Shown here piece by piece: positions 50,720-54,435 of a stretch of 56,256 nucleotides of DNA. The notes under the pieces were generated by a model that was not told the DNA's origin, did not search any database, and saw only the letters and a program-made list of their open reading frames with translations. Numbering within the stretch: the first letter of the stretch is position 1; each line of letters opens with the position of its first letter. The stretch covers positions 1 through 56,256 of IMG/VR virus record IMGVR_UViG_3300035665_002545, one strand, 5' to 3'. The DNA is from a virus. A program made the translations under genes and the position numbers.

Positions 50720-50755
50720 CCAGTCCTTATCTTTTTGAATATTTATAAAGACTGG
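50720..50755 (-). promoter_or_regulatory. Hairpin sequestering the gene 13 ribosome site
   Basis: On the minus strand CCAGTCTTTAT (50755-50745) and ATAAGGACTGG (50730-50720) form an 11-bp stem with one G-U and a 14-base loop. The 3' arm holds AAGGA, the ribosome site of gene 13. The late promoter lies across the 5' arm and loop, so late transcripts would start in the loop and leave the site free. Confidence 0.65.
50740..50747 (-). promoter_or_regulatory. T4-type late promoter of gene 13
   Basis: Perfect TATAAATA on the minus strand, 21 bases before the gp13 ATG, overlapping the 5' arm and loop of the hairpin at 50720-50755. The predicted start is an A near 50734. Confidence 0.8.
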
Positions 50756-50762
50756 GTTTTGG

Positions 50763-51599
50763 TTATTTTAGACCCATGGCTTGGCGAATTTTAGTGGCAC
50801 TAATACAATGAATATTGTCATCAAAAACTTCTTGCTCGATCTTATAGCCAACATCACGCCCATACGTAATATTAACTACATTAGGCACTACTAAAATTTC
50901 ATAACGACCTTGATAAAGGGGGTCTAAATCACGCCTAATGTAGTTTTTTACTTGTTCAATCGCAAACGGATTGCTATCATTCCACCCCTGGCAGTCACGA
51001 ATCATAATGCAAACTTGACCTGTTTTTTTCAGAGCTCTTTCAAAAAGCGCACGATGACCTTCATGCCAAGGTTGCCAACGACCTAACATTTGAACAGTTT
51101 CTTGCTTCCAGTCAAAGCGTGGACGGCGTTGTTCATTAACGATCCGTTCCCCCACATACTCAGCCCACCTTTCTGCATTTTTTTCTGTGATACGAAAGTC
51201 GTATATATCGGGAGGTATAAATGCCTTGTTAGTATCCTCGTATCTTCCTGCATCAATAGTATCCATCCAGATTGTCCAGTCAGCTTTGAAGTTATGGCGC
51301 ATCTCAGGAAGTGGAGCAATAAAATCACAAATTACATAATCTGTGCTTGATTCAAAAGCAAACTGCGCCATTCGAATACTTTGGCGTATTCTTCCCTCTC
51401 TAGAAAAGTCCCAGTCGTTGAACTTCTTACGAATTTCATCTGCGTTAAACCAAGTGACAGACGCATTGGGAAGCCGAGGGACCATCTCACGATTGAACCA
51501 ATCCATAGGAGGTACGCTTAGCTCGAGATACTTCTTAAGTTTTTCTGCAAGGTATGTCTTTCCTGATCCGGGGAGACCCATAACAAGAATTTTTTGCAT
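50763..51599 (-). CDS. APS-kinase-like/nucleotidyltransferase fusion
   Basis: A 278-residue, two-part enzyme. The N-terminal P-loop part has GLPGSGKT (8-15), an NADEIR-type motif (FNADEIRKKF) and ICDF, as in adenylylsulfate kinases. The C-terminal part, from about residue 170, has GRWQPWHEGH, the HxGH nucleotidyltransferase motif, and ISATKIRQ, its closing (S/T)xxR-type motif, with YGRDVGY between. The order kinase then transferase is that of animal PAPS synthases, although the second domain is much smaller. A sulfotransferase two genes upstream supports sulfate activation. The start at 51599 avoids overlap with the preceding small gene. Confidence 0.75.
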   Translation of the reverse strand: MQKILVMGLPGSGKTYLAEKLKKYLELSVPPMDWFNREMVPRLPNASVTWFNADEIRKKFNDWDFSREGRIRQSIRMAQFAFESSTDYVICDFIAPLPEMRHNFKADWTIWMDTIDAGRYEDTNKAFIPPDIYDFRITEKNAERWAEYVGERIVNEQRRPRFDWKQETVQMLGRWQPWHEGHRALFERALKKTGQVCIMIRDCQGWNDSNPFAIEQVKNYIRRDLDPLYQGRYEILVVPNVVNITYGRDVGYKIEQEVFDDNIHCISATKIRQAMGLK

Positions 51600-51600
51600 A

Positions 51601-51852
51601 TTACACCAAAGCTGCTTTTCCGTTTGCAATTGCGGCGGTTAGATCAGAAAGATCGCCACCGAGTTCAACAACTTTTGGATCTGCCATGACAATCTCCAGA
51701 TGGGCAACGTTTCTTTCAATGTTGCCACGACCTTCGTCGGTTAGTTCGCCGCGATCTGCTTTCTTCTGAAGTTCATCAGTAATAACCCAAACACTGTCAC
51801 GCGCTGCGCGAACGGTGCCATCTACTCTTTCTTGATCGGTTGGTTCTGTCAT
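51601..51852 (-). CDS. Small acidic-helical protein of unknown function
   Basis: An 83-residue protein starting MTEPTDQERVDGTVRAARDSVWV, predicted to be all helix, with DELQKKADRGELTDEGRGNIERNVAHLEIVM in its middle. AGGAGC lies seven bases before the ATG. It fits snugly between the sulfotransferase and kinase genes. I recognise no family and no catalytic motif. Confidence 0.6.
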   Translation of the reverse strand: MTEPTDQERVDGTVRAARDSVWVITDELQKKADRGELTDEGRGNIERNVAHLEIVMADPKVVELGGDLSDLTAAIANGKAALV

Positions 51853-51853
51853 T

Positions 51854-52807
51854 TTAAGCTCCTATGATACTTGAAGGTTCGTCGGTTGATTTAGGTGGTT
51901 CGGCATCAGGCTCGAACTCATCGGTTGGAATAGGATCATCGAGAGTTCTCCAAAACTCTGCATTCACACATTTAGATAGTGTTGCTTCAGAAAGAATTTC
52001 ATCAGGATTAATACCCCTACGACCCAAAGATTCTCTAACTTCATGCATGTCTGCCATGCCGTAAACTTCTGCATCACGTTCACGATGAATATTTTCAATC
52101 TTAGAAAAGTCATGCTCAAAGTATTCTTCACCCAAAAACTCATAAATCTTTTTCATAGTTTCTTCTGGCTTATCCATCAGATCACTATACTCGATGAAGT
52201 GTAACGACTTGAGATTACCTTCCATGATAGCTTGTTTGATTCCATTGTAGCTTTGACCCAGAATACCCATGGGGCTGGCAAGAAACTCACAACGATTGTC
52301 ATCAGTCAAAGGAACATTTGACTTAATCAACATTTCATCAATAAAGTTAATCTTTGCGCCGTCCTGTGTATAGGTGTTTCTGCGCTGCATGGCGATAAAC
52401 GAAGCAAGAATTTCCTTAATGTCTCGTACAGGACACAAAACTTTTGCTTCTACACCAAAGTAACCAGGAATGTAATGCAAACGGTTGACCCATGAACGAT
52501 TCTTATCGAAGATTACGGGTTTATCCACATCCGAGTAGTAGTTTTCCATAACCCCCGAAATAATCTTTGCCGCTTGTTGGGGTTTTGGATATGCCAGAAA
52601 CAATTCATCTTGCGACAAAGAGGTTTCAAGTGCAATCATGGTTGGGACTACAGGTGAACTAGGACCCGAGTAGAACCTAGGATTCTGATTAAGAATAGAA
52701 GAAAGCAATGTACTACCTGCGCGAGGCAATCCTGACATGAAGTAATACTTTTTCATGTTAGCTTTCATCATTTCTTCACGAATAATTTCTTTGATCATTT
52801 CTTTCAT
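51854..52807 (-). CDS. Sulfotransferase family protein
   Basis: A 317-residue protein with the 5'-PSB loop GLPRAGSTLL (26-35), which binds the phosphosulfate of PAPS, and VRDIKEILASF for the 3'-PB motif. IFDKNRSWVNRL lies between, as in prokaryotic sulfotransferases. It should pass sulfate from PAPS to a sugar or protein. A charged N-terminal helix precedes the domain and the C-terminus is rich in acidic residues and Pro. GAGG precedes the ATG. Confidence 0.85.
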   Translation of the reverse strand: MKEMIKEIIREEMMKANMKKYYFMSGLPRAGSTLLSSILNQNPRFYSGPSSPVVPTMIALETSLSQDELFLAYPKPQQAAKIISGVMENYYSDVDKPVIFDKNRSWVNRLHYIPGYFGVEAKVLCPVRDIKEILASFIAMQRRNTYTQDGAKINFIDEMLIKSNVPLTDDNRCEFLASPMGILGQSYNGIKQAIMEGNLKSLHFIEYSDLMDKPEETMKKIYEFLGEEYFEHDFSKIENIHRERDAEVYGMADMHEVRESLGRRGINPDEILSEATLSKCVNAEFWRTLDDPIPTDEFEPDAEPPKSTDEPSSIIGA

Positions 52808-52814
52808 AGTAACC

Positions 52815-53711
52815 TCATTGTTTGTCTACAGATGCAATGATTTTATTTATATCAAATAAATCTACATCTTCGGTGAAGGGATATTCAATCTCATTGCCAT
52901 TGAAGTCAAAGTCAAACAAGTAACTTCCTGGCAGTTTGAAGTCATACGGAATGTCGGTTGTGATATTGTCATGCATATCATAACCAAAAACTTTAGGACT
53001 TGTGCCATTCCACAAAACTGTTGACTTGCGCTTCATGGCAGCTGCTGCATGTTGCAAACTTGAATCAATCAGAATACGCTTTTTTGAATGCATAAGCAAA
53101 CTAAAAAACTCCATTAGCGATAGAGACTGCTGTGGTGTTGCATAAATGTGTTCAGCCCCATTTAGTTTGGGAGAGTTCAACTTAGTCACTTGAAAGATGT
53201 GATAATCTTTTTGATAGTGATTCACCAACTTTTGTGCTAGATCCGTGGGCATGTCGCGTGTCCATGCATAAGGTTTAGCATCAGTGGTCATCATTCCCCC
53301 GTTGGTATGAATAACCATGACAGGTTTCTTTCTTGCCCAAAACTGTTTTGACAAATCGAATTGCAGCTTATTAAACTTTACTGTGGGAGTTTCATTATTG
53401 TACTTCAATCCATACATCTCACACCAGTTTGGAATCAAACGCTTTCGCTTGTGAATGTGATTTGTAGTATAGTATGGTTCATGATGAAACAAAATGCTGT
53501 CTTTATCTTGAATGAATTCTTGATAGAAGTAACTAGTGTTGCCTAAGGTAAACACACGATCCACAAAAGGTAGATTGATGAAGATATCGGGGTATGCACA
53601 AACCACAACCAGTTTTCGGTCGGGATGATTGTTCTTGATGCATTGTGCTACGGCAGTTGCTGCAACATGTTTGCCAATTCCCCCTTGAAGGTGAAAAATG
53701 CTATATTTCAT
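52815..53711 (-). CDS. GT9-like glycosyltransferase
   Basis: A 298-residue protein starting IFHLQGGIGKHVAATAVAQCIKNNHPDRKLVVVC, a GT-B fold start as in ADP-heptose transferases (GT9), with MEFFSLLMHSKKRILIDSSLQHAAAAMKRKSTVLW near the C-terminus, where the sugar donor binds in this family. It probably adds a sugar to LPS or virion protein. Overlap with neighbours is small, and AGGAA precedes the ATG. Confidence 0.77.
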   Translation of the reverse strand: MKYSIFHLQGGIGKHVAATAVAQCIKNNHPDRKLVVVCAYPDIFINLPFVDRVFTLGNTSYFYQEFIQDKDSILFHHEPYYTTNHIHKRKRLIPNWCEMYGLKYNNETPTVKFNKLQFDLSKQFWARKKPVMVIHTNGGMMTTDAKPYAWTRDMPTDLAQKLVNHYQKDYHIFQVTKLNSPKLNGAEHIYATPQQSLSLMEFFSLLMHSKKRILIDSSLQHAAAAMKRKSTVLWNGTSPKVFGYDMHDNITTDIPYDFKLPGSYLFDFDFNGNEIEYPFTEDVDLFDINKIIASVDKQ

Positions 53712-53712
53712 T

Positions 53713-54435
53713 TCAAATTCCTATAGTTTTACGAATAATATCCCAGTTTCTCGCATTGAAGAAATGGTTGTACCGATAGACATTTTTAGTATCAAGATCG
53801 ATACGCTTTTGAATCTGACTCTTGATATCTTTAGAGATGATTGTCTTTGATATCTCGCCATGAATCTTGCTTGTCTTTAGTGTGTAGATGTTTTCACTAC
53901 GTTGTATCAGATAATCGTCACCGTACCACACCTGGTATAAACTAGGTATAACTCGATACGAAGATCGCTTGATAAACATACACACACCATAGGCATAACT
54001 TTGCCCACCAATAGGTTGTGACTTGTTTACATTCAGGCGGATAAGTTCTTCTTTCATGTCAGGATGATTTATAATGTGAAAGTTATCTACACTTCCTTTA
54101 AGATGCACACCAATGATATCTATCTGAGAGAAATCTAGTGAATGCATAAAGTTAAAAACATCATGTTCTACTTGAACATCATCATTAAGAAAGCAAATCA
54201 CATCTGCACATGAACGATAGTATCCTTCATTCCATGCAGGATTGACATAGATGTTCTTGCCATAGTTTATGATATGCAACTTTTCATGGGATACCAGATG
54301 CTTGGGCCTCTTTGCATAGTCATTGTCTATCAGATAGATGTTTGATATGCTATCACAGTCGCAATAGGTTTGCAATGCCTCTGGAAAGTTTTCATCCTTC
54401 CACATAGTAGGAATAACTAAGTCAATTTTTGTCAT
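53713..54435 (-). CDS. GT2-like glycosyltransferase
   Basis: A 240-residue protein with DLVIPTMWKDENFPEALQTY at the start, NPAWNEGYYRSCADVICFLNDDVQVEHDVF giving the D-D-x metal motif (about residues 80-90), and GVCMFIKRSSY and WYGDDYLIQR with acidic catalytic residues. It is a GT-A family 2-type enzyme of unknown substrate. It starts in an ATGA overlap with the upstream gene. Confidence 0.75.
   Translation of the reverse strand: MTKIDLVIPTMWKDENFPEALQTYCDCDSISNIYLIDNDYAKRPKHLVSHEKLHIINYGKNIYVNPAWNEGYYRSCADVICFLNDDVQVEHDVFNFMHSLDFSQIDIIGVHLKGSVDNFHIINHPDMKEELIRLNVNKSQPIGGQSYAYGVCMFIKRSSYRVIPSLYQVWYGDDYLIQRSENIYTLKTSKIHGEISKTIISKDIKSQIQKRIDLDTKNVYRYNHFFNARNWDIIRKTIGI

Follow-up and report, generated by a model that had tools for sequence, protein, structure and literature searches.

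The virus record IMGVR_UViG_3300035665_002545 was analysed over all its 56,256 nucleotides, a stretch referred to here as the window. Its source is a freshwater T4-like virus, and the T4-like structural genes for the terminase, tail sheath, portal and head-tail adaptor are present. Directly upstream of the neck gene, the minus strand carries two glycosyltransferase-like genes, a sulfotransferase gene, a gene for an 83-residue protein and a gene in which a kinase is fused to a nucleotidyltransferase (NT). From the domains of this fusion and the contexts of its homologues, we consider it very likely that the fusion is a compact analogue of 3'-phosphoadenosine 5'-phosphosulfate (PAPS) synthase that acts with the adjacent sulfotransferase.

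The fusion (50763..51599, minus strand) encodes 278 residues and was delimited with profiles and homologue alignments. As listed, its open reading frame (ORF) spans 50763-51629 with a TTG start; we regard the TTG at 51629 as an artefact because the homologues begin at M(x)KILIMGLPGSGKT, which matches the ATG at 51599. The sulfotransferase (51854..52807, minus strand, 317 residues) is of the PAPS type, with a loop resembling the 5'-phosphosulfate-binding loop (SGLPRAGSTLL) and a motif resembling the 3'-phosphate-binding motif (VRDIKE). It matches PF13469 (E = 6.9e-15, 56.3 bits) and PF00685 (E = 1.1e-10, 41.8 bits) above the cut-off, and shows a weak PDB match to protein-tyrosine sulfotransferase. 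The 83-residue protein between them (51601..51852, minus strand) has no assigned function and has homologues in 17 related loci; its gene is kept between the sulfotransferase and the fusion in a subset of relatives. The gaps on both sides of this gene are a single base, and therefore the three genes are probably translated together. Upstream of the sulfotransferase on the same strand are a glycosyltransferase family 9-like gene (52815..53711) and a family 2-like gene (53713..54435), both with Pfam matches under the cut-off. Thus, the fusion and the sulfotransferase that the sequence-only reading had placed here are both present on the minus strand, and the sulfotransferase does lie two genes upstream, with the 83-residue gene as the one in between.

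Two domains of the fusion

The N-terminal domain (approximately residues 1-162; 51114..51599, minus strand) is an APS (adenosine 5'-phosphosulfate)-kinase-like P-loop domain with the motifs GLPGSGKT, NADEIR, DFSxxGR and DFIAPxxxxR. It scores 25 bits against the APS kinase family PF01583, above the curated threshold of 21.1, and 28 bits against PF08433. The best profile matches include the APS kinase 2yvu, and the top 21 PDB matches in Foldseek come from APS kinases or from a single fungal enzyme that bears an APS-kinase-like domain. A Xanthobacteraceae homologue (L092) scores 2e-17 as an APS kinase. In the kinase alignments, the P-loop and the substrate motifs (D/N)xDxxR, FSxx(D/G)R and F(I/V)xPxxxR are invariant or nearly so.

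The C-terminal domain (approximately residues 163-278; 50763..51113, minus strand) is a compact HxGH nucleotidyltransferase and a candidate ATP sulfurylase, containing GRWQPWHEGH, IRDCQG..NPF, VPN...YGRDVGYK and ISATKIR. An APS-kinase-like part followed by a small HxGH nucleotidyltransferase, as first read from the sequence, is thus what the fusion contains. The NT is ~113 residues long and its AlphaFold2 model (pLDDT, the predicted local confidence score, 89.5) has a PPAT/NMNAT-type fold in Foldseek. Profile matches place NadM/NMNAT, the nicotinamide mononucleotide (NMN) adenylyltransferases, as its closest sequence relatives, although the match to the NMNAT NadM models TIGR01527 and PRK01153 covers only the N-terminal part and reaches 23-27 bits against cut-offs of 181 and 127. 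Invariant in the NT are G-R-x-Q-P-x-H-x-G-H, the R of IRD, NP, PN, YGRxVGY and SA...R. What is left of the NT after the conserved part is too short to hold a counterpart of NMNAT's second half, suggesting that the acceptor is small.

Membership of the ATP sulfurylase (Sat) family was considered for the NT and rejected, with no match to PF01747 and a probability of 5% in the profile-profile comparison by hhalign. The GRD common to YGRDVGY and to GRDHAG of Sat was likewise rejected as a sign of homology, since SAR11 members have YGRGVGY or YGRSVGY. The fusion also has no match to the CysD PP-loop or the CysN GTPase in the Pfam and NCBIfam scans. We propose that the NT, outside Sat/PF01747 and CysDN, represents a distinct lineage of NMNAT/NadM-like proteins that has been co-opted to act on sulfate. 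Consequently, the earlier comparison with animal PAPS synthases stands for the domain order but does not extend to a shared ancestry of the C-terminal halves. Taken alone, the lack of Sat membership would weaken the assignment as a PAPS synthase; it is the contexts of the homologues elsewhere that rescue it.

Gene contexts of the homologues

Gene context gives firmer support in the cellular homologues than in the phage protein itself. An OCS116 bacterium (L098) encodes one protein in which the NT is joined to a full-length, canonical APS kinase (PF01583, E = 3.4e-64, model positions 2-152 of 152) that has all APS kinase motifs, and neither PF01747 nor CysD was detected in the genome. The same architecture, cut by a contig end, was found in a gammaproteobacterium (L097) whose genome does have CysD. 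In two alphaproteobacteria (L150 and L152, genomes G458 and G365), an operon with the sirohaem-synthesis gene CobA/CysG, CysI (E = 1e-212), CysH (E = 9e-74) and a short gene that resembles one for a membrane protein ends with the kinase and NT; in these genomes, too, neither PF01747 nor CysD was detected. The operon suggests that the cellular forms would serve assimilatory sulfate reduction.

It has been reported that SAR11 bacteria have AprBA, the APS reductase, and mostly lack ATP sulfurylase (PMC10356861). Among 148 SAR11-family genomes, where aprA+ denotes a true AprA, we found the NT in 66 of 73 aprA+ genomes and in 20 of the 75 others (Fisher p = 4e-16, not corrected for phylogeny), a co-occurrence that is partly phylogenetic. 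Sat is present in 6 of the 73 aprA+ genomes, while 60 of the 67 without Sat have the NT. In 30 genomes the NT lies at most 4 kb from aprA, often as a stand-alone gene of 126 residues between a TENA/PqqC-like gene and aprM-aprB-aprA, and one such cluster (L095) also holds xsc, a gene for taurine breakdown. The stand-alone NT of SAR11 probably runs APS + PPi (pyrophosphate) → ATP + sulfate, the step behind AprBA, or it may be an APS:phosphate (ADP-forming) variant. The few true SAR11 Sat genes that we read (L116, L118) sit among apparent cell-surface polysaccharide genes and not with aprMBA, which suggests that they serve sulfation. At three other SAR11 loci (L127, L128 and L130), the kinase and NT have Rieske-type, CoA-binding and enoyl-CoA hydratase-like genes as neighbours, and L127 is also near genes that, judged by eye, resemble selenium-binding/methanethiol oxidase, EgtD and EgtB.

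Sulfotransferases recur next to the gene in cells as well as in phages. They adjoin it in SAR116 (L087, L088 and L096) and at L100 and L093. The settings include an Acetobacteraceae polysaccharide locus (a weak match) and a phage contig binned with Flavobacteriaceae, where the kinase, the NT and the sulfotransferase are encoded by three genes that overlap. No other gene neighbours the phage fusion as often as the sulfotransferase, which is within four genes of it at 40 of 80 loci, and a PF13469 sulfotransferase occurs in 29 of 50 phage records with the fusion. To avoid selection on the fusion itself, we fetched relatives by the neck protein, which gave 67 loci whose upstream sequence extends for 6 kb or more. 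In this control, a sulfotransferase lies upstream in 7 of the 8 loci with the fusion and 3 of the 59 without it (p = 1e-6). The eight phages represent only about four lineages, and the effective evidence is smaller while its direction is the same.

The fusion was confirmed at 410 loci in IMG/VR, a recurrence well above chance. At the best 80 of these, it is ~70-80% identical, against an identity of often no more than 30-50% for the structural genes around it, indicating that the gene is strongly conserved or recently spread. In the NT tree, the freshwater phage copies form one supported clade (100/97) that is sister to the chromosomal copies of SAR116 (98/88). Distant relatives with 34-40% identity occur in Stenotrophomonas, Xanthomonas and Clavibacter phages. 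Two of these divergent fusions, in Clavibacter phage 33 and Stenotrophomonas DLP6 (L083, L084), lie close to genes whose annotation is cysteine dioxygenase or Fe(II)-dependent oxygenase, and their function may differ because of their long branches in the tree. No relatives were found at the nucleotide level among sequenced phages.

Proposed reactions and alternatives

Read from homology and from the sulfotransferase neighbour, the phage fusion would work as follows. The C-terminal NT would adenylylate sulfate (ATP + sulfate → APS + PPi) and the N-terminal domain would phosphorylate the product (APS + ATP → PAPS + ADP), after which the sulfotransferase of the operon would move the sulfuryl group from PAPS to an acceptor. 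A glycan built by the products of the adjacent glycosyltransferase genes, rather than a virion protein, would be the most likely acceptor, because those genes adjoin. Sulfate activation followed by sulfotransfer, which the sequence-only reading had put forward, is the best-supported reading owing to four independent lines: the NT-APS kinase fusion, the cysG-I-H operons, the aprMBA linkage and the recurrent sulfotransferase neighbours. In its wider form, which we consider likely, this reading adds to Sat and CysDN a third ATP sulfurylase class, represented by the NT, which would be ~113 residues long, derived from NMNAT and unrelated to the other two. This class would supply the missing step between sulfate and APS in SAR11 and some other ocean bacteria, in whichever direction each organism runs it, and the phage form, with the NT fused to an APS kinase, would be the smallest PAPS synthase known.

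Several observations weigh against this proposal, including the small number of lineages in the neck control. The nearest characterised relatives of the NT are NMNATs, homology to Sat was undetected at any level examined, and the QxRN sulfate-binding motif of Sat is lacking in the NT. In the alignment to canonical APS kinase, the canonical KGLYKKARAGEIKEFTGID segment is absent from the phage kinase; it is absent also from the SAR11, SAR116 and Xanthobacteraceae forms and is present only in the OCS116-type fusion. The absences of Sat and CysD rest on incomplete genome assemblies. Lastly, a PF13469 sulfotransferase was not found in 21 of the 50 phage records, some of them up to 162 kb, where other sulfotransferase families were not searched.

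These 21 records leave room for an alternative in which the fusion makes APS and PAPS and its main purpose in the phage is to feed host sulfur assimilation or another sulfur-using modification rather than sulfation. We consider this unlikely. Some fusions do lie among nucleotide or replication genes, and the cellular versions would serve assimilation. Where no sulfotransferase is nearby, the neighbours include glycosyltransferases, a carbamoyltransferase, IMP dehydrogenase, GTP cyclohydrolase and a clamp loader, with no common theme. The sulfotransferase, however, is the commonest neighbour, shares a tight operon with the fusion in the window and tracks it in the neck control, and the closest cellular relatives, those of SAR116, also adjoin sulfotransferases. 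In some phages without the sulfotransferase (L080, L081), the fusion is near the genes of GTP cyclohydrolase I and IMP dehydrogenase, a setting that might point to base modification using sulfur.

It is still less probable that the fusion acts on a small glycan building block bearing a phosphate or phosphonate group, which would be activated with a nucleoside diphosphate and then phosphorylated by the APS-kinase-like domain. HxGH domains usually take phosphate esters, and in the synthesis of the Campylobacter O-methyl phosphoramidate an APS kinase homologue has as its substrate a nucleotide different from APS. The glycosyltransferase neighbours in the window fit this idea, as do the Xanthobacteraceae and Acetobacteraceae homologues, which lie in polysaccharide loci. 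It would, however, leave the cys operon, the aprMBA linkage, the fusion to a canonical APS kinase and the association with sulfotransferases unexplained. The least probable alternative, considered for the NadM matches, has the NT acting as an NMN adenylyltransferase and makes the fusion an enzyme of nicotinamide adenine dinucleotide (NAD) salvage, pairing a ribosylnicotinamide kinase with NMNAT as in NadR, a known kinase-NMNAT fusion, in reversed order. In its favour, the NT finds its best profile and PDB matches in NadM/NMNAT and its Foldseek matches include NMNATs. We rejected it on gene context, because the neighbours are sulfur genes (aprMBA, cysG-I-H, the APS kinase fusion and sulfotransferases) with no NAD gene seen nearby. 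In addition, the kinase half is APS-kinase-like and not NadR-like, and the NT, which stops shortly after the fourth strand, has ~113 residues against 167-175 positions in the archaeal NMNAT models.

Late-promoter-like octamers and known systems

A T4-type late-promoter-like octamer, TATAAATA, is located upstream of the sulfotransferase (52844..52851, minus strand), 37-44 bases before its start and where the coding region of the preceding gene ends. It weakly supports the suggestion that the module acts late in infection; against this, the octamer is conserved in just 6 of 62 related sulfotransferase ORFs. The window contains eight occurrences of TATAAATA (50740-50747 and others) against 2.8 expected, every one on the gene strand. 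Several of these octamers are immediately upstream of structural genes.

If the proposal is correct, it adds a new enzyme class for a central reaction of the sulfur cycle and offers a candidate for the ATP sulfurylase reported missing from most SAR11, which are among the most abundant ocean bacteria. A large group of freshwater viruses would then carry its own sulfation chemistry. Annotation pipelines now label such proteins as kinase, cytidyltransferase or NMN adenylyltransferase, and sulfate activation would have been overlooked in many genomes. We found no earlier description of such an enzyme in the literature searched, which covered few subscription papers, and novelty is not proven.

The fusion belongs to the same phage family as PHROG 10255 (E = 7e-48), which is annotated as a kinase only, with the NT half and its function unremarked. 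The sulfotransferases of the cyanophages S-SKS1 and S-SRM01 are homologous to that of the window (33-38% identical), whereas the fusion was not found in those two phage records. Among cellular enzymes, the animal PAPS synthase (APS kinase - ATP sulfurylase; 1x6v) likewise has an N-terminal APS kinase-like domain followed by a C-terminal HxGH nucleotidyltransferase, and the reactions proposed for the fusion are identical to its own. The fusion differs from it in that the C-terminal domain is NMNAT-like, ~113 residues long and outside the ATP sulfurylase family, and in that the kinase is without the canonical KGLYKKAR segment. The bacterial bifunctional Sat-APS kinases (Aquifex 2gks and Thiobacillus 3cr8) also hold both steps in one polypeptide, and the OCS116 homologue matches their order, with the NT before the APS kinase; the difference is the compact NT in place of the Sat part. 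With NadM/NMNAT (2qjt, 1f9a and 1ej2), the NT has the fold and the GR(F/W)QP(F/W)HxGH, NPF and (S/A)xT(K/E)IR motifs in common, and it is set apart from them by its shortened C-terminal half, the invariant YGR(D/G/S)VGY and R of IRD, and the sulfur-gene contexts in which it lies.
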